Origin: Selenomonadaceae bacterium | GTDB lineage: Bacteria > Bacillota > Negativicutes > Selenomonadales > Selenomonadaceae | Direction: 5' to 3' | NCBI GenBank assembly: GCA_017455645.1 | Contig: JAFSZS010000118.1 | Location: 1 to 43,911, forward strand | Length of the DNA: 43,911 nucleotides | In this document: piece by piece, positions 11,050 through 27,612 of the stretch | Position numbering within the stretch: the first letter of the stretch is position 1 | How the letters are laid out: every line of letters begins with the position of its first letter | Translations under genes and position numbers: made by a program | Notes under the pieces: generated by a model | Told to the model about the DNA's origin: nothing | Database searches by the model: none | The model's input: the letters and a program-made list of their open reading frames with translations, nothing else

Positions 11050-11061
11050 GAGGTGTTGCCT

Positions 11062-13221
11062 TTGATTTATGAAAAAGATTTGTGTACTTACGAAGAATTT
11101 AAAAATATGTCAATTAGAGAACGCCGATATTATCTCAATAAAGTATACGGTGATTCCTTAAGTCATAGGGTAATTGCTGTAATTAAAGAATTTTCATCAA
11201 ATAAAATAGAATTTGAGATAAAATATTTCATCCTGCAGAATAATCTTCTTCAAGAATTTTACTTGTTTAAAGATAAATCTTTCTCAAGCTTTACTTCAAA
11301 CAGTAATATTCTTATAGCTTCTTGCATTAAAAAAAATTTTTCTGTTGGTGATTCACTTGTTTGTGAAATTTATGCGGGTGATGTACATCCCGTGTCTTTT
11401 TTCGTATGCTCCAAAAAGCAAGCTAAAAGCATACTTGAAACTTACGAAAAAATTGGTATTTCATATAATCCCGATGAAATTTCCAAAGAAAATAATAAAA
11501 ATTTCAATGATGATTCGACACTCGCTAACATTGATGTACAACTTCAAAAGAATATAGAGGAAAAAAATTCTGAAATTGAACTTTTAGAAAAACGCCTAAA
11601 CGAATTAAAAAAACTTCAAGAAGACGCCGAAAATCAATATAAGGACAAGGTTCAAATTCAGGAACAAAAATTAACTGAAGAGTACAATCAAAAAAAATCT
11701 GAACTTCAAAATCTTATTTCCGGAATGGAAAATGAACGCAATGAATTAAAAGAAGATATTGAAGACTTAAACAGCAATATTGAAGATTTGAATAAGAAAA
11801 TTCAACGTTTGAATAATGAACTTGAAGAAAAATCAAATGAACGTTACGAATTAGAAGAGTACATTGAAAATTTGAATCGTCAAAAAGATTCTTTGGAAGA
11901 AAAATTAAATATTTTGCGTGCGTACGGGATTAATTTTTTTGATAAAGAGCCTGCAGAAGAAATTGTAATTGAAGAAGAAACCGCTGATTTTGACGGCGTT
12001 ATAGATTTTCTTTTTAATGGCGATTCTGCAAAAAAAATTTCTACTCAAAAAAAATCTGTCAAGCTTAGAAATTTTAACGACTTCGACGAAATGGCGGATT
12101 ATTGGCAAAGTCATTTGAACACGGCGAAATATAATTTTTTGAAGTACGACAAAAGAATTTTGGAAAGTTTATATTTCGGCTTGCAAACAGATCAATTAAT
12201 TTTGCTTATGGGAAATCCCGGCACAGGCAAAACAAGTTTGGTTAAAGCCTTTGCAAAGTCTTTCAATTTCGCCGACGCAAAAATTATTCCCGTTCAATCC
12301 AACTGGACTGATAAAAGCGATTTGCTCGGCTATTACAACCCGCTTGAAAAAAATTACGTTGCAACACCGTTTCTTGACGCGCTCATAAATTTTTCCCGGC
12401 AAGCTGAAAAAAATCCCGACAAGCTTTTTATAATTTGCCTTGACGAAATGAATTTGGCACACGTGGAATATTATTTTGCCGAATTTTTAAGTATTTTGCA
12501 AGATAACGATAACGCCGAAATTACTTTGTACAGTGAACAACTTCAACAAAATATTTTGTACGAATTGGAAAACGTCGGCTTTAAAATTGACGGCGATAAA
12601 ATTTTCTATGAAGGTACGCCGCTTGAAAGGTTACGTTTGTTGGAGCGCAAATATTATTTTGAACTTCGACGCCTCGCGCAGATGCTGATAAATTATCCCG
12701 CAAAATTTAAAATTCCCAAAAATGTAAAGTTTTTCGGCACGCTGAATCAAGACGAAACAACTTTAGATATTAGCCCAAAAGTTTTGGATCGTTCGTACGT
12801 GATTAGGGTTGAAAAATTTTCTGACGCCGAAAAAATTCCTGTAGGTGACGAAACGCCATTGCAGTACAAGCCGCTTGAAGAATATACGTATCAATATGAA
12901 CCACAAGAATTTGATGATATGAAAAAATATTTGATAAATTTAATGGAAGATTTAAAATTCGTTCATATTAGTTGTCGTGTAACTGATAAAATCCTTTGCA
13001 ATGAACAAGTCTCAAATTGTACAAGAATTTTAGGTTCTTTGAGGATTCAAGATTTTATTATCGTGTCGTGCATTTTGCCTAAAGTTCGACTTGACGAAGA
13101 AAAATATGAAATTGACGCCGCGGCTGTCCAAAGTTTATTATTTTGGGGAAGTTGGGGCTGGGAAATTTGGCAAAGTATCAATTCGCCGGAAGAAAAAATT
13201 GCAGATTTTTGGAGGCGGTAA
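11062..13221 (+). CDS. McrB-like AAA+ protein with N-terminal coiled coil
   Basis: Probably the motor subunit of a type IV restriction (McrBC-like) system. Of 719 residues, about 1-150 form an unrecognised beta-rich domain. Residues about 153-290 form a long Glu/Lys/Asn-rich coiled coil (ENERNELKEDIEDLNSNI is typical). The AAA+ domain has Walker A GNPGTGKTS (near 384), Walker B LFIICLDEMNLAHVEYYF (near 455) and FFGTLNQDETT (near 556, sensor region) before a candidate Arg finger in LDRSYVIRVEK. TTG at 11062 is chosen because AGGAGGT (11049-11054) sits 7 bases upstream; a GTG at 11053 lies inside that site. It is followed after 3 bases by the nuclease gene. The first 900 bases look more AT-rich than the neighbours. 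The target nucleic acid is unknown. Confidence 0.85.
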   Translation: MIYEKDLCTYEEFKNMSIRERRYYLNKVYGDSLSHRVIAVIKEFSSNKIEFEIKYFILQNNLLQEFYLFKDKSFSSFTSNSNILIASCIKKNFSVGDSLVCEIYAGDVHPVSFFVCSKKQAKSILETYEKIGISYNPDEISKENNKNFNDDSTLANIDVQLQKNIEEKNSEIELLEKRLNELKKLQEDAENQYKDKVQIQEQKLTEEYNQKKSELQNLISGMENERNELKEDIEDLNSNIEDLNKKIQRLNNELEEKSNERYELEEYIENLNRQKDSLEEKLNILRAYGINFFDKEPAEEIVIEEETADFDGVIDFLFNGDSAKKISTQKKSVKLRNFNDFDEMADYWQSHLNTAKYNFLKYDKRILESLYFGLQTDQLILLMGNPGTGKTSLVKAFAKSFNFADAKIIPVQSNWTDKSDLLGYYNPLEKNYVATPFLDALINFSRQAEKNPDKLFIICLDEMNLAHVEYYFAEFLSILQDNDNAEITLYSEQLQQNILYELENVGFKIDGDKIFYEGTPLERLRLLERKYYFELRRLAQMLINYPAKFKIPKNVKFFGTLNQDETTLDISPKVLDRSYVIRVEKFSDAEKIPVGDETPLQYKPLEEYTYQYEPQEFDDMKKYLINLMEDLKFVHISCRVTDKILCNEQVSNCTRILGSLRIQDFIIVSCILPKVRLDEEKYEIDAAAVQSLLFWGSWGWEIWQSINSPEEKIADFWRR

Positions 13222-13224
13222 TTT

Positions 13225-15207
13225 TTGGAACTTTTGATGACACTGATTAACGCCCAAGATTTTACGCCGCTTGCCGACAATGAATACACTGAAAATATTT
13301 TTCGTACAGATGAGCGCGGCTACTTTCAAACGCACATTTACTTTGGCAATTATATTCCGGCGTTCAGCTTTGAGGGCGCGGCAGAAAATTATTCATTGGA
13401 ATTTGGCGCAGATAAGGATGGCAACCGCCAAAAATTTCAGCGTCATTTTAATTTCTATTACGATAAAAATTTGGGCTGGAATGTTGCCGGCTGGACTTAC
13501 ATTTTTGTTTTGAAAGACGGCGCAATTATCGAAACGCACAAACTTTTGACTTTGCCGGATATAAAAGAATGTGAGGCAATGATTAGGGAATTGCTTTCTA
13601 TTCGGCGGGAACTTTTTCAGAAAAGCAACGAAAATAAATCCAGTTTGGCTGAAAATCTGCGCGAAAAAAATTGGGCGGAAATTTTACAAGCTTTGAATGA
13701 GCAGGCAGAGGAAATATTTCAGCTTATGAAAAATGTTAATGCTCGGCGGCGTTTTGGCTTGCAGAAATTTCAAACGCAAGTTACCGCGTCAAAGATTCAC
13801 CGTTTCGATGAAAAAATTATTCGACAGTACGCCATTGCTCCAAACAGAAAAAAATATTTCGTGTCTGCCGAAAAAATTTCAATGAATATCTTTGAAAATC
13901 GCTTGTTGAAAAATAAAATCTTGCGGCTGAAAAATTTTGTCGAGCGTCAAAGTCAACAACAAAAAATTAACGCCGAAGCTTTACAACAAGATATTGTCGC
14001 GCAGATTAAGCACGTTGAAAATTTGAAGCCCCAAAATGACGACAATAAATCTTTGGCTGAAAATGCTTTAAAAAGTTTAAATTCGCAACTTCAAGCTAAC
14101 AAAAAAAATCTTGCAGTTTCGCCGGATAAGATTTTGGAAATGCTGAATAAGTGCCTCGCCTTGCCGGTTTTTAACGGCGTCGAAAACAAAAATGAAAAAT
14201 GGCGAATGACGCAAATTTTTACCAATGACGCCAATTATCGCAGGGCTTACCTCAAGCTGAAAGAGTTGGACGAAATTTTTGACTTTTCATTTGACGCCGA
14301 CGAAAAATCTTTTCCCGCCGAAAAAATGTATCAAATTTACGAATGGTGGGTACTTGCAAAAATTATTGAATTTCTTGTTGTCAAGTTGCAATTCAAAATT
14401 GAAAATACTTCAGATAATCCCGCTGAAATTTTGCGCAAACTTTTTGGCAACCTTGAAAATATTCAAAAGGCAACAATCAGCTTGACGCACGAAAATTCTA
14501 AAATGGAAATGCAAATTTTTTATAACACCGAAATAAAAGATTCTCTGAAAAGCGGCAACTGTATTTTGCGCCCGGATTATCTTTTTAAAGTTAAATCTGA
14601 AGACACAGAAAAAATTTTTATTCTTGACGCCAAATATCGCAACTACAAGCTACAGGGGAATTTTTTTTGGCAAGAAAAAGATTTGCGCGGCGTTTGCTTT
14701 GAAAAATATATTCAAACAATTAAAAAGTACACCGGCAAAGAAATTTCAATGTCTTTTATTGTCCATTCCGACGGCACGCACAAAGATAAATTTTGGGGTA
14801 AGTACGTGGTCTACAATGGCGCGGAATTTTTAAAAAATTTTGCCGAAATTGACGGCGCACGTCAACAAATAGGCTCCTTTTATCTTTTGCCGCAAATTGA
14901 CAACGAGTCTAATCAATCTGAAATAAATTTGTCATTGTTTTTCAAGATTATGTTTGAATATTTTATGGAAAAGTGGCAAATTTGCTGGGAATGCGGCTCA
15001 AACAAAGTTGACTGTACAGAAATTCCTTTGAATAAATTTTCAAAATTTCACATTCGCTGCCAAAATTGCGGGGCGTTTTGGGTCAACAATTACTGTAGTG
15101 AGTGCGCCAAAAAAAATTCCCGTATCGCTTTAATAAAGCACGCCGTCAATTATCACAACGAAAAAGCCGGTACTTGGTATGTTCGCTGTCCAAAGTGCGG
15201 GGAGTAA
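13225..15207 (+). CDS. McrC-like PD-(D/E)XK nuclease with DUF2357-type N-terminus and zinc ribbons
   Basis: Likely the nuclease partner of the preceding AAA+ protein. The 660-residue protein has an N-terminal beta-rich region resembling DUF2357-type proteins, a helical middle with coiled-coil character (about 150-310), and a nuclease core. In the core, RPDYLFKV (near 450) and ILDAKYRNYK (near 466) supply the PD...DxK catalytic residues. The last 75 residues are cysteine rich: CWECGSNKVDC, CQNCGAFWVNNYCSECAKK and CPKCGE, enough for two zinc ribbons, an uncommon addition for McrC. The start is TTG at 13225, with GGAGG about 9 bases upstream. It ends 5 bases before dprA. The family call rests on motifs and gene pairing. 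Confidence 0.8.
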   Translation: MELLMTLINAQDFTPLADNEYTENIFRTDERGYFQTHIYFGNYIPAFSFEGAAENYSLEFGADKDGNRQKFQRHFNFYYDKNLGWNVAGWTYIFVLKDGAIIETHKLLTLPDIKECEAMIRELLSIRRELFQKSNENKSSLAENLREKNWAEILQALNEQAEEIFQLMKNVNARRRFGLQKFQTQVTASKIHRFDEKIIRQYAIAPNRKKYFVSAEKISMNIFENRLLKNKILRLKNFVERQSQQQKINAEALQQDIVAQIKHVENLKPQNDDNKSLAENALKSLNSQLQANKKNLAVSPDKILEMLNKCLALPVFNGVENKNEKWRMTQIFTNDANYRRAYLKLKELDEIFDFSFDADEKSFPAEKMYQIYEWWVLAKIIEFLVVKLQFKIENTSDNPAEILRKLFGNLENIQKATISLTHENSKMEMQIFYNTEIKDSLKSGNCILRPDYLFKVKSEDTEKIFILDAKYRNYKLQGNFFWQEKDLRGVCFEKYIQTIKKYTGKEISMSFIVHSDGTHKDKFWGKYVVYNGAEFLKNFAEIDGARQQIGSFYLLPQIDNESNQSEINLSLFFKIMFEYFMEKWQICWECGSNKVDCTEIPLNKFSKFHIRCQNCGAFWVNNYCSECAKKNSRIALIKHAVNYHNEKAGTWYVRCPKCGE

Positions 15208-19944: not shown

Positions 19945-20457
19945 ATGAATAAAATTAAAAATCAGCGCGGCTTTGCCGTTTTGGAAATTATTTTGATTGT
20001 TGGGGTAATTGCGATTTTCTCAAGCGTTGCTCTGCCCAAAATGAAAATTACCCTTGACAAAGTTGCTTTAAATTACGAAATGAAACATTTGTACAGCGAA
20101 TTAAATTTGGTGCGTTCAATCGGTAAATCTTCCACTTTCAACGGCGGGATTTTTCCAACTATGCAAGACGCCGGACACAAAGTCGAAATTTGGCTTTACA
20201 GTAAAAATTATTCAAATGAATCTGCGCGAAATCGTTATCAGATTATGCGCACTTCTTTAACTTCGACGCCTTACTACCGCCACAATTTAACAAATGGAAT
20301 TAATCTTGAATTTTCCGGCGGCTATTATTTGAAAGAAATTGATTTTAGCAATTTGGGCGACTCTCAAAAATTTACTTTGATTTCAAAATTTGGCGATAAA
20401 GCCTACGTTAAAATTGACAGTCTTGGACGCGTTCGCGGTACTTACAATGAAGAATAA
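19945..20457 (+). CDS. Prepilin-like protein 1 (GspH/FimT type)
   Basis: A secreted minor pilin or pseudopilin of 170 residues. The short basic leader MNKIKNQRG is followed by a class III cleavage site, G-FAVLE, with Glu at mature position 5 and a hydrophobic helix (LEIILIVGVIAIFSSVALP). Cleavage and N-methylation would be done by a prepilin peptidase not in this window. The globular part has no recognised family. It is the first of four consecutive small pilin-like genes; the stop overlaps the next start by 11 bases. Only a weak ribosome binding site is seen. Confidence 0.85.
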   Translation: MNKIKNQRGFAVLEIILIVGVIAIFSSVALPKMKITLDKVALNYEMKHLYSELNLVRSIGKSSTFNGGIFPTMQDAGHKVEIWLYSKNYSNESARNRYQIMRTSLTSTPYYRHNLTNGINLEFSGGYYLKEIDFSNLGDSQKFTLISKFGDKAYVKIDSLGRVRGTYNEE

Positions 20458-20827
20458 TCAGCGCGGCTTTATGTTTTTGAGTGCGATTTTTTTAACGCTG
20501 ATAGTTTCATTTATTGCGCTGATAACTTTAAACGCCAAATACAAAGTTCAGCAAAGAAATTCCACGCTGTATCTTACGGCGATAAATCTTGCGAACGAAC
20601 AATTTGCATTTATCGAAGGCGACGCGGGCGATATACCGACTGAAGATAAAAAAAGTTACAACGGTATGAGCGAAAGTTCCGAGCCGATTGAATTTAAAAT
20701 TTCCACTTCAAGAAACGGCAACCGATTTACTGTAAAAGTTGAATGGACTGTCAACGGCGAAACTGAAACTTTTGAATCTACCAAAACAATATATCAGACT
20801 GGCGGGCAAAATTCAAATGAAAATTAA
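20447..20827 (+). CDS. Prepilin-like protein 2 (GspI/PilV position)
   Basis: A 126-residue protein starting MKNNQRGFMFLSAIF. It has the same NQRG leader and G-F cleavage site as its neighbour and a hydrophobic segment (LSAIFLTLIVSFIALITL), but Ser rather than Glu at mature position 5. ATG at 20447 overlaps the upstream stop; an open frame back to 20390 would overlap much more and hide the leader. The rest is polar with short beta-prone stretches and no cysteine pair. Position second in the group suggests a GspI/PilV-like role. Confidence 0.8.
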   Translation: MKNNQRGFMFLSAIFLTLIVSFIALITLNAKYKVQQRNSTLYLTAINLANEQFAFIEGDAGDIPTEDKKSYNGMSESSEPIEFKISTSRNGNRFTVKVEWTVNGETETFESTKTIYQTGGQNSNEN

Positions 20828-21377
20828 ACTGAATGAGCGCGGCTTCATTTTGGCAGAATTTTTAATTGCACTGCCGCTTTTAATTTTGCTGTTGTACGCG
20901 CTTGTTACTTTGATAATTCAAACTTCAAAAATTGCGCGTGAACAAGTTGCAGATTATGTTTTGGAAACAGAAGCGCAGGAAGTCCTAGACAGAATCACTG
21001 CCGACGCCCGCACTGCTTATTCAGTCAAAATAGAACCGGCAACCAGTCTTATTGACGCGGAAAATTTAATTTTAAAATGTCATAATAAAAGCGATAAATC
21101 AACTACGCTTACAGATAATCTTGAAAAAAGAGTTTACGCCGTGTATTCGGCGAATGGTAAACCTTTTCATGTTTATGAAGTGCGGCAAAACGAAATCTTC
21201 AGAAATCCAATTACCGGCGGCAATTCTTACGGCGATACAATCGTTAGGCAGTTGAAATATTATTTCGTTCCGGAGAAAAAAGTTTTACATATAACTTTGG
21301 AAATGGAAAGCGATGTTACCAAGCAAAAAGTTAAATTTACCACTGCGGTTTATATGCCCGGTTATCAATCTGAATGA
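20817..21377 (+). CDS. Prepilin-like protein 3 (GspJ/PilW type)
   Basis: A 186-residue protein starting MKIKLNERGFILAEFLIALP, with a basic leader, G-F cleavage site, Glu at mature position 5 and a hydrophobic helix to about residue 40. The globular domain (ETEAQEVLDRITADARTAYS, and FHVYEVRQNEIFR) resembles PilW/GspJ/ComGF proteins by eye. ATG at 20817 overlaps the upstream gene by 11 bases, the same spacing as the previous pair. Confidence 0.82.
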   Translation: MKIKLNERGFILAEFLIALPLLILLLYALVTLIIQTSKIAREQVADYVLETEAQEVLDRITADARTAYSVKIEPATSLIDAENLILKCHNKSDKSTTLTDNLEKRVYAVYSANGKPFHVYEVRQNEIFRNPITGGNSYGDTIVRQLKYYFVPEKKVLHITLEMESDVTKQKVKFTTAVYMPGYQSE

Positions 21378-21843
21378 ACGCGGCTTTTTTACAATCGTTG
21401 GCGTTTGTCTACTTTTAGTTTCTGCAATTTTTATCAAGGGGATTCAAGAATTTGAGGCGAATTACTCCCGCGGCGTTACGAATTTTCAAGCTGAACACCA
21501 ACTGCAAAATCTTGCTGAAACTTACTTGATTGAAAATATCCCAAATATTTCTCCGGAAAAAACCTACAAGTTTTCAGAAAAAATTGGTACTTACGGCAAA
21601 TTAAAAAATGTTGAAGTTGTAGTTTGGGCGCAATGGCAAGAAAATATTCCTATGAAAGACGGCGAAATTACTTTGCGTGAGGGTTCCGGCACAATTTTAG
21701 TTAGTGTTGCAAGTTGTGACAGTCTTTTTGTTGCAGGGAAAATTTATCGCCGCGCTTTTGCTTACATTTTGGATAATGACCCTGAAACTGAAATTGATGA
21801 ATCTGCAACGATTTATTTTGTGAATCAGTTGCCTGACAAATAA
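21313..21843 (+). CDS. Prepilin-like protein 4 (GspK/PilX position, no Glu5)
   Basis: A secreted minor pilin-like protein. The core leader is NLNERG followed by FFTIVGVCLLLVSAIFIKG; there is no Glu at mature position 5, as often in GspK/PilX. The start is uncertain: ATG at 21313 gives a 24-residue leader and overlaps the previous gene by 65 bases, whereas a CTG at 21370 would give a leader like its neighbours and an 8-base overlap. I report the ATG. The remainder (176 residues in all) is acidic with several beta-prone segments. It ends 23 bases before the GrpE-like gene, which has a strong ribosome binding site, implying one operon. Confidence 0.75.
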   Translation: MLPSKKLNLPLRFICPVINLNERGFFTIVGVCLLLVSAIFIKGIQEFEANYSRGVTNFQAEHQLQNLAETYLIENIPNISPEKTYKFSEKIGTYGKLKNVEVVVWAQWQENIPMKDGEITLREGSGTILVSVASCDSLFVAGKIYRRAFAYILDNDPETEIDESATIYFVNQLPDK

Positions 21844-21866
21844 TTTTTTTCAAAGGAGGCGAGTTA

Positions 21867-22430
21867 ATGGATTCGCAAGCAGATAATGAAACTTTTGACG
21901 CGGCGCAAGTCGATTTAAATAAATTGGTTGAACTGATTAACGAAATTTTTGACAAGCAAGAAAGAAATTCTCGGCTGTTAAATCAAGTCCTGCGCGAAAA
22001 TGTCAACTTTCAAAATCAAGTGCGGCAGGGAATGTACAACGAAATTGAAGAAATGAAAAAGCAACAACGCGGCGAACAATTCACGCCGATTTTAAAATCT
22101 TTGGCGGCAATTTGCGTGGAATATCGCACGGTTTTAAGCGATGAATCACTTTCTTCAAATACGCGCCGCACTTTGCAACTTATGTTTGAAGAAATGGAAG
22201 ATATTTTGGCTGAATACGGCGCAGAAATTTTTAATTCAAAAGTTGGAGAGCCGCGCCGCCCACTGCTTACCAAAATTATTAATACAATTTCCACCAACAA
22301 CAAGGAAAGTCATAACACCATTGCTAAAAGCCGTCGCGCAGGAGTCGTGCGCAACGGACGCCCACTTTACCGTGAATTTGTCGACGTTTTTGTATACGAC
22401 CCAACTTTTGAAAATAAATCTGAAGATTAA
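21867..22430 (+). CDS. GrpE-like nucleotide exchange factor
   Basis: A 187-residue protein behind AAGGAGGCGAG. It has an N-terminal helical region with coiled-coil spacing (about 10-75), a second helical segment (about 75-125, SLAAICVEYRTVL, LQLMFEEMEDILAEYG) and a small C-terminal beta domain ending VVRNGRPLYREFVDVFVYDP. In order and character this follows GrpE: a long helix, a short four-helix bundle, and a beta wing with the 'G(Y/R)xxxxRxxRxAxVxVY' end. It is divergent and far from housekeeping GrpE. The call gains weight because an Hsp70 gene follows. It would act in the cytoplasm to release ADP from that Hsp70. Confidence 0.68.
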   Translation: MDSQADNETFDAAQVDLNKLVELINEIFDKQERNSRLLNQVLRENVNFQNQVRQGMYNEIEEMKKQQRGEQFTPILKSLAAICVEYRTVLSDESLSSNTRRTLQLMFEEMEDILAEYGAEIFNSKVGEPRRPLLTKIINTISTNNKESHNTIAKSRRAGVVRNGRPLYREFVDVFVYDPTFENKSED

Positions 22431-22453
22431 TCAAATGAAAAAAATAAAGACGC

Positions 22454-22563
22454 GGCGTCCACGGATGGACGCCGACGCGTTGTGAATCGCGTGATGCGAT
22501 TCAACGCGGTAGAAAAGCACTTTTCTTTGGTACTTTCTTTTTTGCTTTGGAAAAAGAAAGTAC
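22454..22563 (+). repeat. Three-hairpin intergenic element, copy A
   Basis: Three successive hairpins lie downstream of the GrpE-like gene: GGCGTCCA-CGGA-TGGACGCC (22454-22473); a 13-pair stem CGCGTTG..AATCGC / GCGATT..CAACGCG around a GTGAT loop (22476-22508); and GTACTTTCTTTTT / AAAAAGAAAGTAC (22530-22563). A second element with the same order but different stem sequences is at 35741-35889 on the other strand. It occupies most of the 188-base gap before hsp70. Confidence 0.75.
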
Positions 22564-22618
22564 ATAAAAAAATTAAAAAATTTTAAATCAGTAAAAAATT
22601 TGGAGGAGAATTTTTTAA

Positions 22619-24253
22619 ATGAGTACTTACGGAATAGACCTTGGAACAACATATTCTTGCATAGCGCGCCTCGATTCAAACGGCAACCCCGAAGTTATCC
22701 GCAATAACGAAGATGATTCAAATATGGTTGCCTCGGTAGTTTTTTTTGAAAATGAAAATAACGTTGTAGTTGGACAAGCCGCCAAAGAAAATATCGAAAC
22801 TGACGGCGACCGCGTTGTACAATTCGTCAAGCGTGAAATTGGCAAACGTGATACCCGCACTTACGAATTTGACGGCAAAACTTATACACCGGTTGAAATC
22901 AGCGCGTTAATTTTGACACGCTTAAAAAATCTTGTCGAGGCGCAAGGCAACACCATTGAAGACGTTGTTATAACTGTTCCCGCGTATTTCGGACTGGAGG
23001 AACGCTCCGCCACAAAACAAGCCGGCGAACTTGCAGGCTTGCACGTTTTAAGCTTGATTAATGAACCTACCGCGGCGGCTTTAAGTTATTGCGCCCGCCA
23101 ATTTCAAGAAGACCGTACAATTTTAGTTTATGATTTGGGCGGCGGCACTTTCGACGTTACACTTGTTAAAATGTCAATGACGCGCAATGAAGCCGGTAAA
23201 GACGTGCAAAAAATTAACGTGCTTGCAACCGGCGGCGATGATAAATTGGGCGGTAAAGATTGGGACGATAAACTTTTTGAATATATTCTTAATGCTTGCT
23301 GCGAAGAAAACGGCTTGACGCCACGAGAAATTGAAGCTGAAACCCGCCAAGATATCCGCAGTAAAGTTGAAGAGGCTAAACGCAAACTTAGTAAAAAACA
23401 ATCCGCCAAAGTTCGTATCGACGTAAACGGCTCCCGCACTGAAATTACAATCAAGCGTTCAGATTTTGAAAGTATGACTGCTGATAAAGTCGCGCAGACT
23501 ATGAATTTTGTTGAATCAACTTTACAAAAAGTTCCGGGCGTCGAAGTCGATACAGTTTTACTTGTCGGCGGCTCCACTTATATGCCTATGATTAAAAACG
23601 CAGTTGAAGAAAAATTTCCCGGTAAAGTTCAACAACACGACCCCGATCAAGCCGTTGCAAAAGGCGCGGCAATTTATGCAAGTATGCTTGTTGTTGAGGA
23701 AGGCACAATTTCAACTGGCGAAACTTCAGAAAATAATTCTTCAGAAAAAAATCCGCACGCCGAACAACTTACCGCCAAATTTGCCGTTGAAGATCAAACG
23801 CCCCGCTCTTTCGGTCCCGGCGTTATGGATACCAAAGGCAGTAAACATAAATACGTTTTGGAAAATTTTATTAAAATTGGCGAAAAAATGCCCGCGGTTT
23901 TCAGCAAAACTTATTACCCGCTTGAAGATAATCAAGAACGCGTAAGACTGCGCGCCTTTGAAAATATGTCAACTGAAGATACTTTAATTCCCTGCGTCGA
24001 TGAAGACGGCAACCCGCAAGCTACAGATCCCGCCAACAATGTAAAACTTTTGGGCGAATTGGTTGTAAATTTGCCGCCGGAAACTGCGCGAAATACTCCT
24101 ATCAAAGTTACTTTCAAAGTTGACGCAAGCGGCGTACACGTCGAGGCAGTCAACACCAAAACTAATGAAATTTTTGAAACTTTCCTGCGCACTGAATCAG
24201 ATATTGACGTTGACAACAGCGCAGTACATCAACTTAGAATTTCCGCAGATTAA
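22619..24253 (+). CDS. Hsp70 (DnaK-like) chaperone lacking the lid
   Basis: A 544-residue Hsp70. The nucleotide-binding domain (1-370) has phosphate loop 1 GIDLGTTYSC, INEPTAAALSY, phosphate loop 2 VYDLGGGTFDVTL, the connect segment and LLVGGSTYMPMI. After a low-complexity stretch (about 375-390) a beta substrate-binding domain is visible: DQTPRSFGPGVMD, KTYYPLEDNQERVRLRAFE and KLLGELVVNLPPETARNTP. It ends at residue 544, right after the beta domain, so the alpha-helical lid of DnaK (about 100 residues) is absent, as is the EEVD-like tail. ATG is preceded by GGAGGAG. It ends at a strong terminator. It is probably a client-specific Hsp70 paired with the adjacent GrpE-like and J-like genes. Confidence 0.92.
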   Translation: MSTYGIDLGTTYSCIARLDSNGNPEVIRNNEDDSNMVASVVFFENENNVVVGQAAKENIETDGDRVVQFVKREIGKRDTRTYEFDGKTYTPVEISALILTRLKNLVEAQGNTIEDVVITVPAYFGLEERSATKQAGELAGLHVLSLINEPTAAALSYCARQFQEDRTILVYDLGGGTFDVTLVKMSMTRNEAGKDVQKINVLATGGDDKLGGKDWDDKLFEYILNACCEENGLTPREIEAETRQDIRSKVEEAKRKLSKKQSAKVRIDVNGSRTEITIKRSDFESMTADKVAQTMNFVESTLQKVPGVEVDTVLLVGGSTYMPMIKNAVEEKFPGKVQQHDPDQAVAKGAAIYASMLVVEEGTISTGETSENNSSEKNPHAEQLTAKFAVEDQTPRSFGPGVMDTKGSKHKYVLENFIKIGEKMPAVFSKTYYPLEDNQERVRLRAFENMSTEDTLIPCVDEDGNPQATDPANNVKLLGELVVNLPPETARNTPIKVTFKVDASGVHVEAVNTKTNEIFETFLRTESDIDVDNSAVHQLRISAD

Positions 24254-24265
24254 AAAATTTTTCCC

Positions 24266-24286
24266 GCCCTAAACAGGGCTTTTTTT
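24266..24286 (+). terminator. Rho-independent terminator after hsp70
   Basis: GCCCT-AAAC-AGGGC hairpin followed by seven Ts, beginning 12 bases after the hsp70 stop. Confidence 0.85.
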
Positions 24287-24333
24287 ATTAGAAAAATTGA
24301 AAATCCTTTCCTATTCCCTAAGCTGAAAAAAAA

Positions 24334-24342
24334 TGCTATAAT
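24334..24342 (+). promoter_or_regulatory. Extended -10 promoter for the J-like zinc-ribbon gene
   Basis: TGCTATAAT (TATAAT at 24337-24342), 24 bases upstream of the TTG start and behind the hsp70 terminator. The gene is thus a separate transcription unit. The -35 region is weak. Confidence 0.55.
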
Positions 24343-24366
24343 GCAAAAACTTAGGAGAGGATTTTT

Positions 24367-27300
24367 TTGGCTAATAAAAATATTTTTGAAATGCTCGGCT
24401 TGGAATTTGACCCGCCGGACAATCTGAAAAAAATTCGTGCGGCTTACGAAAATTGGGAAAAACGCCTGAACGCCGAATTAAATACCACAGTCGACCCCAA
24501 CCGCGCCGAAGAAATTAAAGCTGAATTGGCGATGGACAATTATATTTTGCAGACAATAGAAAATGCGCGGCTGCGTCAACGCGAGGCTGAATCTTTGAAA
24601 CAAAAACGCGTTGAAGAGTTGCGCCTTTATATTGACATTCAGCGCGGCGATATTTCCGGCACTTTGCAAGTCAACACTTCCCAAATTAAACAGATTAAAG
24701 ACAAACTCAAACTTAGCACGGCAACCATCGAGGCAACTTACCGCGAGCAGGGCTTTGAAGTTAAACCTATCAAAACTGAAAAATCTGTCACAACAATTTT
24801 GAACGGCTACTTTATTGCTGATTCTGTTATGGCTGAATTGCGAAAAAATTTTGCCGATTTTCAAACAGTTCCCGACGAAAAAAATTATCCTTGGTCTGCA
24901 AACGTTTCAAATTTTTATGAATTGGCTTACTACCTTGAAAAGCAAATTGAACCTTCGCCGGATTTTTACAAGCGGCGTGATACTGACGAACTGCGCGAAA
25001 TTTTTAAAAACGAAGCAAAAAAAGTTTCCGCGCCTATTCCCGCGTGGCGTTCAATTAAAGCACTCCTAAACCTTGCACAAACTCAAATTTTTAATTCAGA
25101 TGACAACCGCTTTAAGTACGAACATTCTTTGAAAATCGAAGGGCTTTATGATTTTTTCAACAAGTTAAAAGCCGCGCCGGAAATTTTCAAGCGTGATAAA
25201 TTTTTCGCCGATAACTGCATAAATCGAATACGCCGCCAATTTCCAAATTTGCTGAATTACGAACTTAGCGCGGCACTTTACAATAAAGCCGTTGGTTTAA
25301 CCAAAGACCCTTACGAGTCGGTTAATGACGTTTACGAAAATTTTTTCAGTTTGACTTGTACGAATTGCGGCGCGTTTGAAAGTTTTCGTACCCGCGAGGA
25401 AGCCGAGCGTTCAACTTGCCGAGTTTGCGGCGAAAATTTTTATGTTGAGTGTCCAAAGTGCGGCAAGCGTATGCCTTCCTACGCTGACCATTGTACAAAT
25501 TGCGATTTTTCTTTCAGTGAATTGCGCCGTTACGGTTATTACCTTGATCACGCAAACGCAATGCTTGATTTAATTGAGCGCAACGCAAAATCTTTTGAAG
25601 GCAGCAGCGATAAAATTTTGGCGGGCGTTGTTGATAATTTGGCAAAGGCAAAAATAGTTAAGCCGGAATCTCCCGACCTTACAAAAATTGAATGGCGTAT
25701 GAATAAAATTGCAGCCGAATTTAAAAAGCGCGAGCTTGTACGTTGGGCGGAGGCGAAACTTCCTTCACTTAGCACGCACCCCGATACTGCCGTTAGTGAT
25801 TGTATGGAAATTTTGCGCCGTATCAAAGATTATAAACCCGCGCTTGACAGATTAAGATTGATTAAGCCGAAAAAACCTTTAAGCCTTAGCGCGGTTATCC
25901 TTGAAAGTGAATCCAAAAATACTTTGGCGGCAAATTCCATTGTTCAAAAAATTTCTATCAAGTCAAAGTCAACAAGCGTTGCCTCGACAAGTTCAAATTT
26001 AGTTTGTAAATTGCATTGGCAACCCGACAGCGATTTGGGCGTTTTTTATACACTTGTTCGCAAAACTGACGGCATACCGAAAAATTATCACGACGGCGAA
26101 ATTATCGTTGAAAAAACCGAACAGATAGAATTTGAAGACGGCAATATTCACCCCGGCGTTTTGTACGGCTACGCGGTTTTTGCGGCGCGGCTGGGCTCCG
26201 TTTCAGAACCTGCAACTTGCAAAATTGTACATTACAGCGACATTGCCGCCAATAAATTAATCGCCAAAACTGAAGACGGGCATTGTAAATTTATGTGGCA
26301 GTTGCCTTCTGATAATTGCTTGGGCGTGCGAATTTTGCGCGCTGACAGCGAAGGAAATAATGTTATCGTTGCAGATTGTGTTGAATCGCCCTTTGTTGAC
26401 AGGCTTGTAAAAAATCGCAAGCAGTATCAGTATCGTTTGCAGTGCGTTTATTATTCGGCGGAAGATACGGTTACCAACTTGCAACAATTTTTGGCTGAAG
26501 TCAACAAGGAAAATTTTAACAAAGTTTGGAAAACTGAACGCTCTCTGAAGTACAGCGACGGCGTAACGGTAAATTTGTTGCCGGAATTGCCGCCACGCCC
26601 CGTGAAAAATCTGGAGCACAAAGTTTTTGAGGAGCGCGTTAAATTTACTTGGCAGTCAACCGGCGATTTTGAAATTTGGTTTAAAGAAATTGTTGACGAT
26701 AAAAAAATTTCAGTTCCCGCGGGAGAAATTTTTGACTTAAATAAAATTGACGAACTTTTGGGAAACGGCGTTGTAATGAAGCGCGCCGAATGTTCAGATT
26801 TATTTTGTGAATTTGCGTTGACTGCCGATTTAATGAAAATTGCCGTTATCAGTGCAACGCGGGAGTTTGGAGTTGTCGGGGAAATTTTGACTGTAACAAA
26901 CGCCGAGCCCTGCGAAATTGACAAGGATAAAACTCAAATTATTGCCAACGATTTAAAATTAGTTTTGCAAAAGTTGCCGCCAAATGTCTATATGATTCAT
27001 TACAAAGTTAAAACTAATGAAGCTGATGAAGTTTACGCAACGGTTGAGGACGCCAAGACGCGGCAAATGAATAGGATTTACGCCTCAAAATATATGCAAG
27101 ATAATTCGATAACTCAAACGCACTTACCGCACAGGGAATTATTTATTACGGTTATTGCCGAATACAAATTAAAAGGCGGCTCAACGGTTTATTCCGAACC
27201 AAGCACTTTGACTTTGGATAATCGCCCGCGCTCCGAAATTTCTTATTATCTTGAATGGGGAAAAAGTTTTGGGCTTTTCACGACGAAGGCGCAGGCTAAA

Positions 27301-27552
27301 AATTGCAAGCTGATGATTGAAAGTAAAGCCGAATACACGCCGAAATTATATTTGGCTTGCAGGAAAGACGGCTTGACGAATATAAATCTGAAAGATTCTT
27401 TGACGCGGATTTTGGCTGAAGTTCCGGAATATAAAAACGGTTTACCGAACGGACATATTGAAATTTCACTGCCGGACGAAATTTGGGACGAAGTTTTACC
27501 CGGCGCGATTGTAAAATTAATGACTGCGCCCGACGACGAACGCCATTTTTAA
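24367..27552 (+). CDS. Large J-like/zinc-ribbon/beta-repeat protein, probable Hsp70 partner
   Basis: A 1061-residue protein of unrecognised overall family, with no signal peptide. Residues 1-75 resemble a J domain (IFEMLGLEFDPPDNLKKIRA, then a conserved-looking AYENWEKRLN), but FDPPDN stands where HPD would be, so canonical Hsp70 activation is doubtful. Residues 80-325 are helical. A cysteine-rich block at about 330-385 (CTNCG, CRVCG, CPKCGKR, CTNC) makes two zinc ribbons, as in many DnaJ proteins. From about 545 onward there are at least three beta-rich, fibronectin III-like segments (CKLHWQPDSDLGVFYTLVRK; CKFMWQLPSDNCLGVRILRA; VKFTWQSTGDFEIWFKEI). The start is TTG behind AGGAGAGG. Placement after a lidless Hsp70 and GrpE-like gene suggests the third member of a chaperone set. 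Confidence 0.72.
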   Translation: MANKNIFEMLGLEFDPPDNLKKIRAAYENWEKRLNAELNTTVDPNRAEEIKAELAMDNYILQTIENARLRQREAESLKQKRVEELRLYIDIQRGDISGTLQVNTSQIKQIKDKLKLSTATIEATYREQGFEVKPIKTEKSVTTILNGYFIADSVMAELRKNFADFQTVPDEKNYPWSANVSNFYELAYYLEKQIEPSPDFYKRRDTDELREIFKNEAKKVSAPIPAWRSIKALLNLAQTQIFNSDDNRFKYEHSLKIEGLYDFFNKLKAAPEIFKRDKFFADNCINRIRRQFPNLLNYELSAALYNKAVGLTKDPYESVNDVYENFFSLTCTNCGAFESFRTREEAERSTCRVCGENFYVECPKCGKRMPSYADHCTNCDFSFSELRRYGYYLDHANAMLDLIERNAKSFEGSSDKILAGVVDNLAKAKIVKPESPDLTKIEWRMNKIAAEFKKRELVRWAEAKLPSLSTHPDTAVSDCMEILRRIKDYKPALDRLRLIKPKKPLSLSAVILESESKNTLAANSIVQKISIKSKSTSVASTSSNLVCKLHWQPDSDLGVFYTLVRKTDGIPKNYHDGEIIVEKTEQIEFEDGNIHPGVLYGYAVFAARLGSVSEPATCKIVHYSDIAANKLIAKTEDGHCKFMWQLPSDNCLGVRILRADSEGNNVIVADCVESPFVDRLVKNRKQYQYRLQCVYYSAEDTVTNLQQFLAEVNKENFNKVWKTERSLKYSDGVTVNLLPELPPRPVKNLEHKVFEERVKFTWQSTGDFEIWFKEIVDDKKISVPAGEIFDLNKIDELLGNGVVMKRAECSDLFCEFALTADLMKIAVISATREFGVVGEILTVTNAEPCEIDKDKTQIIANDLKLVLQKLPPNVYMIHYKVKTNEADEVYATVEDAKTRQMNRIYASKYMQDNSITQTHLPHRELFITVIAEYKLKGGSTVYSEPSTLTLDNRPRSEISYYLEWGKSFGLFTTKAQAKNCKLMIESKAEYTPKLYLACRKDGLTNINLKDSLTRILAEVPEYKNGLPNGHIEISLPDEIWDEVLPGAIVKLMTAPDDERHF

Positions 27553-27612
27553 TTCAAAATTTTAAAACCTGAAAGTGTCATTGTACCAAAGAAATAATTT
27601 AATAAAAAAAAT

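Follow-up and report, generated by a model that had tools for sequence, protein, structure and literature searches.

The gene block and its chaperone genes

We analysed a 43,911-nucleotide stretch of DNA (the window), which is contig JAFSZS010000118.1 of assembly GCA_017455645.1 (contig C49) and belongs to the 81%-complete genome of a Selenomonadaceae bacterium whose closest relatives are metagenome-assembled genomes of uncultured rumen Selenomonadaceae. Its forward strand carries four prepilin-like genes, followed by genes for a GrpE-like protein, a lidless Hsp70 and a protein of 1061 amino acids (aa). All seven were confirmed as open reading frames at the positions given in a preliminary description of this DNA, which had proposed a pilus-linked chaperone system. 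The three chaperone genes are our main subject. For comparison we used 60 congeneric rumen Selenomonadaceae genomes, and homologues were sought more widely in other genera of the family and order, including the sister-genus genome G043.

The GrpE-like nucleotide exchange factor (187 aa, positions 21867 to 22430, forward strand) starts 23 bases after the last pilin gene and is preceded by a strong ribosome binding site, AAAGGAGG, as had been described. The protein itself gives a weak match to the NCBIfam GrpE model (E = 0.0019) and lies under the Pfam GrpE (PF01025) cut-off; its orthologues in G125, G143 and G132 exceed that gathering cut-off, and the family profile matches the GrpE of G043. 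An AlphaFold model with a predicted local distance difference test score (pLDDT) of 51 is too poor to prove or exclude a GrpE fold, and a profile search of solved structures with the GrpE alignment returned nothing convincing. A spacer of 188 bases separates grpE from hsp70 in the window, compared with about 40 to 70 bases in most species, and contains a palindrome-rich insert at positions 22440 to 22560.

The Hsp70 (544 aa, positions 22619 to 24253, forward strand) matches PF00012 with 295 bits (E = 1.3e-87) over residues 5 to 518, which bears out its earlier assignment as a lidless Hsp70. Its alignment with DnaK runs until the beta substrate-binding domain ends, and the helical lid is absent; in the alignment the ATPase motifs are conserved and the interdomain linker is altered. 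The position of DnaK Arg167, which is reportedly the residue touching the HPD tripeptide of the J domain, is occupied by Ser145, and the sequences of the G043 Hsp70s also lack the Arg167 equivalent.

The 1061-aa protein (positions 24367 to 27552, forward strand) starts 113 bases after hsp70. Two zinc ribbons were predicted in it and are present: an alignment of 20 orthologues contains eight invariant cysteines (C331, C334, C351, C354, C362, C365, C376 and C379). The beta-rich repeats that had been noted resemble fibronectin type III (FNIII) repeats, in that Foldseek matches the C-terminal beta region to FNIII arrays with a best E value of 9.7e-6, obtained on a low-confidence model. The N-terminus had been called J-like. 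Among 37 windows of the protein it is the best match to the J domains of DnaJ, at weak scores (hhalign E = 0.003, probability 10.6%), and in its alignment with helices I and II of DnaJ, T/N-A-E takes the place of HPD. None of the 20 orthologues gives a DnaJ match or contains the HPD tripeptide. Helices are predicted at residues 6-9, 18-40, 44-64 and 67-93 with a pLDDT of 45 to 73, the AlphaFold model as a whole (pLDDT 57) is too poor to prove or exclude a J fold, and a profile search of solved structures with this alignment gave nothing convincing. The J fold is therefore not established, and the proposed trio stands as a non-housekeeping GrpE/Hsp70 pair that is conserved together with a plausible J-like partner. 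Since the usual HPD/Arg167 contact is gone on both sides, the two sequences fit a different contact or none. We note that a TAA codon ends the window gene about 14 codons short of where its orthologues stop, and that the frame downstream (27549 to 27597) still resembles the common C-terminus; this is either a recent truncation or an assembly error.

Across the congeneric genomes, the GrpE-like protein was found in 52, the 1061-aa protein in 57 and Hsp70 orthologues, roughly 80 to 95% identical, in about 55. GrpE and Hsp70 genes are neighbours in 48 of the 51 species genomes in which both were found and lie on separate contigs in the other three, so this part of the gene order is far from chance. 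The hsp70 and 1061-aa genes are neighbours in 19 of the 54 genomes with both; contig ends conceal some cases, and the separation is genuine where the flanking sequence is long enough (for example, L032-L036, L040, L042 and L124-L126). Between the window and locus L009, dN/dS is 0.07 to 0.10 in the three chaperone genes and 0.27 to 0.36 in three pilins; by this sequence comparison the chaperone genes are under strong purifying selection. Congeneric genomes contain up to 17 Hsp70 matches each, and in many of them (G132:C30, G131:C7, G092:C4 and others) an Hsp70 of 487 to 489 aa is adjoined by a second GrpE-like protein of about 330 to 390 aa.

In the window the block probably comprises two transcription units, with the 1061-aa gene separate from hsp70, because a terminator-like hairpin and a promoter-like site lie between the two genes. 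The hairpin, which resembles an intrinsic terminator and is followed by T7 (24266 to 24279, forward strand), has a fold z score of -1.4 and is weak as a structure by itself. The extended -10 promoter-like site TGCTATAAT (24334 to 24342, forward strand) is also found upstream of the gene, in a comparable position, in L009, L010, L032, L103 and L104. The same nonamer lies 30 to 40 bases before two other window genes, giving three copies in the window against 0.5 expected by chance. A hairpin masking the ribosome binding site 5' of the 1061-aa gene was considered as a thermosensor and dropped, as the strong stem of the window was not seen as a structure shared by the relatives.

Relation to the DO-GTPase/GAP1-N2 systems

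HSP70 and GrpE occur in about 14% of the neighbourhoods of GAP1-N2-type DO-GTPase systems, which are found mostly in actinobacteria and firmicutes and whose FNIII-repeat protein typically carries a fused DnaJ domain or tetratricopeptide repeats (Kaur et al. 2020, PMC7159879). The predicted role of DO-GTPases is close to the membrane and in membrane stress. Outside the genus, the GrpE profile found a single relative in the sampled genera, in G043, where it belongs to a compact operon (L169) with the order DO-GTPase2, GrpE, HSP70, HSP70-VWA, a 776-aa protein, a second DO-GTPase2 and GAP1-N2/GAP1-M. The first DO-GTPase2 scores 44.4 bits (cut-off 27), GrpE 42.4 (cut-off 25.8), GAP1-N2 74 and GAP1-M 59 bits; the second DO-GTPase2, at 26.6, falls just under the cut-off of 27. 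The 776-aa protein has the same layout as the 1061-aa protein, with an N-terminal FDPP motif, a zinc ribbon and an FNIII-like segment.

The gene for the FNIII protein is followed directly, in most sister species, by a gene for a zinc-ribbon GTPase of DO-GTPase type. This 384-aa protein has N-terminal zinc-binding motifs, the Walker A sequence GVAGAGKSS, and DGAGED and TKLD motifs; its best Pfam matches are DO-GTPase1 (E = 1.8e-5) and DO-GTPase2, under the cut-off. It was found in 44 of the 60 congeneric genomes, and where the 1061-aa orthologue is also present it shares contig and strand with that gene in 34 of 44 genomes, lying at most 160 bases downstream in 29. Downstream of the GTPase there is often a gene for a small protein that begins like a signal peptide and has no Pfam match (L088:15257-15853 and equivalents).

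The comparison of these proteins with G043 shows that GrpE, Hsp70 and, in sister species, the GTPase are homologous to the sister-genus operon. The window-type GrpE profile matches the G043 GrpE with an hhalign E value of 1.9e-9, the two Hsp70s are 35% identical over 565 columns, and the zinc-ribbon GTPase of the sister species matches its G043 counterpart with E = 1.9e-24 over 321 columns. In a tree limited by its FastTree support values and few outgroups, and from which DnaK1 and StkA were left out, the window Hsp70 family and the G043 Hsp70 are sister branches (support 1.00), with HSP70-VWA as the next branch (0.99), and the family lies apart from DnaK and from the four Hsp70s on contig C247 of its own genome. 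The set shares the ATPase domain and the GrpE family with the housekeeping DnaK/DnaJ/GrpE chaperones, but differs from them in this separate branch, the missing lid and HPD, the altered linker and the Ser in place of Arg167.

Taken together, these observations make it likely, in our judgement, that the chaperone genes derive from the DO-GTPase/GAP1-N2 type of system with HSP70, GrpE and a DnaJ-FNIII protein, in a reduced form that belongs to the core genome. The genes for HSP70 and GrpE stand together, as in that theme, and the FNIII-repeat protein has an N-terminal J-like part, although this part is weak and without HPD. G043 differs in having one compact operon, a second, longer DO-GTPase, the HSP70-VWA protein and GAP1; in the congeneric genomes, unlike in the described theme, grpE-hsp70 often forms a unit apart from the 1061-aa gene, and the set belongs to the core genome instead of being mobile.

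Several points weigh against this assignment. GAP1-N2, a defining part, was found in none of the 60 genomes, with a positive control in Corynebacterium glutamicum. The GTPase, which in the described theme has zinc ribbons and a Walker B glutamate, is missing in the window genome and throughout its subclade, where G012 is 99% complete. Because these two defining features fail, we do not file the window set as a member of the system. The match between the 1061-aa and 776-aa proteins is weak (hhalign E = 0.0047, probability 7%) and covers the FNIII-like segment and the FDPP start only; outside the genus, no clear relative of the 1061-aa protein was found in the genera sampled from the family and order. 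Its J fold is unproven, the available model being poor (pLDDT 57), and the genes of the set are frequently scattered, with hsp70 next to the 1061-aa gene in 19 of 54 genomes. Near-universal presence and a conservation that looks vertical set these genes apart from mobile defence systems, and the function of the chaperone set is inferred only, from sequence.

Prepilin-like genes and competing explanations

The four prepilin-like genes lie on the forward strand, each overlapping the next, and their products have prepilin-type N-termini (RGF...). Protein A (170 aa, 19945 to 20457, RGF|AVLE) matches the NCBIfam prepilin-dependent pilin model PRK10574 (E = 4.9e-6) and GspH (E = 1e-3), both sub-cut-off; it is a neighbour, outside the conserved chaperone unit. 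Proteins B (126 aa, 20447 to 20827, RGF|MFLS) and D (157 aa, 21370 to 21843, RGF|FTIV) were recognised from the reading frame and the motif, and a counterpart of gene B (group c10) was found again in the pilin sets of other species. Protein C (188 aa, 20811 to 21377, RGF|ILAE) is PilV/ComGE-like (PilV E = 0.0013, ComGE E = 6.7e-4, sub-cut-off) and has homologues in 57 of the 60 congeneric genomes.

A PilV-like pilin lies closely upstream of grpE in 13 of the 51 genomes having both, and G161 is a fourteenth genome with the linkage, there with other genes intervening. In the 11 measured loci, the pilD-grpE gap is 6 to 63 bases on the same strand, which makes co-transcription plausible, and the closeness is kept even where the genes 5' of the pilins differ (L105, L113 and L114). 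The linked species make up two neighbouring groups in the Hsp70 tree with a large unlinked clade nested beside them, a pattern that could reflect a single origin and a single loss or two gains. In the other 37 of the 51 genomes, pilin and grpE are on different contigs; contig breaks could explain some of these, and many loci show other upstream genes. Elsewhere grpE comes after thiamine genes, succinate dehydrogenase-like genes or others: thiE, identified by Pfam, is tightly upstream in five loci (gap -19 to 129 bases), and in 10 loci an opposite-strand gene precedes grpE, so that grpE must have its own promoter there. The orthologous pilin set of G058 sits away from the chaperones, next to T2SSE/PilT-type, T2SSF/PilC-type and FtsE-like genes. 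In G040, listed as 100% complete, a pilin homologue is present (E = 2e-6) and the GrpE-like protein, the 1061-aa protein and the zinc-ribbon GTPase were all not found, the best match to the window Hsp70 being only at DnaK level; the pilins therefore do not need the chaperones.

The preliminary description had asked whether the gene order pilins, GrpE-like, Hsp70 and J-like recurs; the search across the 60 genomes found pilins and chaperones mostly apart, which largely fits what that description had named as a sign of accidental linkage. We reject pilus linkage as a conserved trait beyond some clades. It is best read as a gene neighbourhood with clade-limited co-transcription, in which the pilins of some clades probably share one transcript with grpE-hsp70 and are probably neither clients nor partners of the chaperones. 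It had also been suggested that the association could be of an undescribed kind, but Hsp70s associated with type IV pili are already described: DnaK1/DnaJ3/GrpE interacts with the pilus motors in cyanobacteria (PMC9239167), in a system also marked by an effect on polysaccharide, and StkA is reported as such an Hsp70 in Myxococcus (PMC4319316). The pilus tie there comes from genetics and, in cyanobacteria, also from protein interaction; here it consists of clade-limited gene adjacency only.

Two other loci of this genome are candidates for defence. On contig C247 (L016:6142-16508), four Hsp70-like genes accompany genes for proteins of 205, 261 and 455 aa and an AAA+ ATPase, and in the first Hsp70 an inserted PIN_4 nuclease domain (E = 2.9e-11, residues 100-210) interrupts the ATPase domain; the cluster is possibly an Hsp70-PIN conflict system. 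In the window itself, a low-GC stretch downstream of murG (11053 to 15207) encodes a coiled-coil/McrB-like AAA protein and a PDDEXK_7 nuclease, gives the PADLOC candidate PDC-M26A (E = 2.4e-76) and resembles a type IV restriction-like defence pair.

Three other explanations of the chaperone genes were weighed. If the Hsp70 set handled prepilins or a type IV pilus motor ATPase, in the way that the cyanobacterial trio interacts with pilus motors, one would point to the pilins running into grpE in 13 species, to the persistence of this closeness behind differing upstream genes and to the cyanobacterial precedent; we nevertheless consider this very unlikely. The 13 species belong to related clades, thiE is similarly close to grpE in other species, G040 has a pilin homologue without any chaperone of the set, the two groups of genes are on different contigs in 37 of the 51 genomes (some of these perhaps through contig breaks), no pilin occurs within the fetched stretch around the GAP1-N2 operon of G043 that contains the chaperone relatives, and the pilins change, measured against silent sites, some three to five times faster than the chaperones.

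An ordinary second Hsp70/GrpE pair for general-purpose folding under stress, to which the 1061-aa protein would be unrelated, agrees with the strong conservation of a core pair with intact ATPase motifs, with the dispersal of the 1061-aa gene and with the terminator-like and promoter-like sites that set it apart in the window. The grouping of the Hsp70 with that of the GAP1-N2 operon, the absent lid and altered linker, and the near-constant company of the 1061-aa protein (adjacent in 19 genomes) argue against it, and we regard it as improbable. An anti-phage conflict system that is still at work, its effector and GAP1-like sensor lying elsewhere or having diverged too far to be seen, would account for the kinship with a predicted conflict system and would sit well with the other candidate defence clusters in the genome. 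We hold it to be unlikely, given the lack of GAP1-N2 in all 60 genomes, a PADLOC search that gave no informative match for the chaperones and one weak partial Hsp70 hit, and a degree of conservation and near-universal presence in the genus that speak against such a role.

A possible core machine and its meaning

Within a reduced derivative of the DO-GTPase/GAP1-N2 type, the Hsp70 would act as a clamp that ATP drives and that the set's own GrpE recycles. The 1061-aa protein may be its partner, touching Hsp70 through the J-like end in a contact that does without HPD and Arg167, and its zinc ribbons and FNIII repeats could recognise clients or an intruder's protein, making it a recogniser or scaffold. 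The zinc-ribbon GTPase, where present, would be the switch, and the set in the window lineage would be a formerly switched system. The likeliest job for such a machine would be to remodel or sequester one particular protein assembly under envelope stress or phage stress. A bolder proposal, which we offer tentatively and at less than even confidence, is that a predicted conflict system has been domesticated: the GAP1 sensor was lost, in one subclade the GTPase too, and Hsp70, GrpE and the J-like FNIII protein now form a core machine of the genus working without the HPD/Arg167 contact through which J proteins ordinarily activate Hsp70.

In the literature found, comparative genomics is the only source of knowledge on the HSP70 branch of the DO-GTPase systems. 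The genomes compared here form a natural series, in which the sister genus has everything, most species are without GAP1 and one subclade is without the GTPase. Because Hsp70, GrpE and the FNIII protein are conserved throughout this series, the three may be the part that does the work, and this opens the function to testing. If Hsp70 and the J-like part interact, the loss of both HPD and Arg167 would mean a different way of docking a partner on Hsp70.

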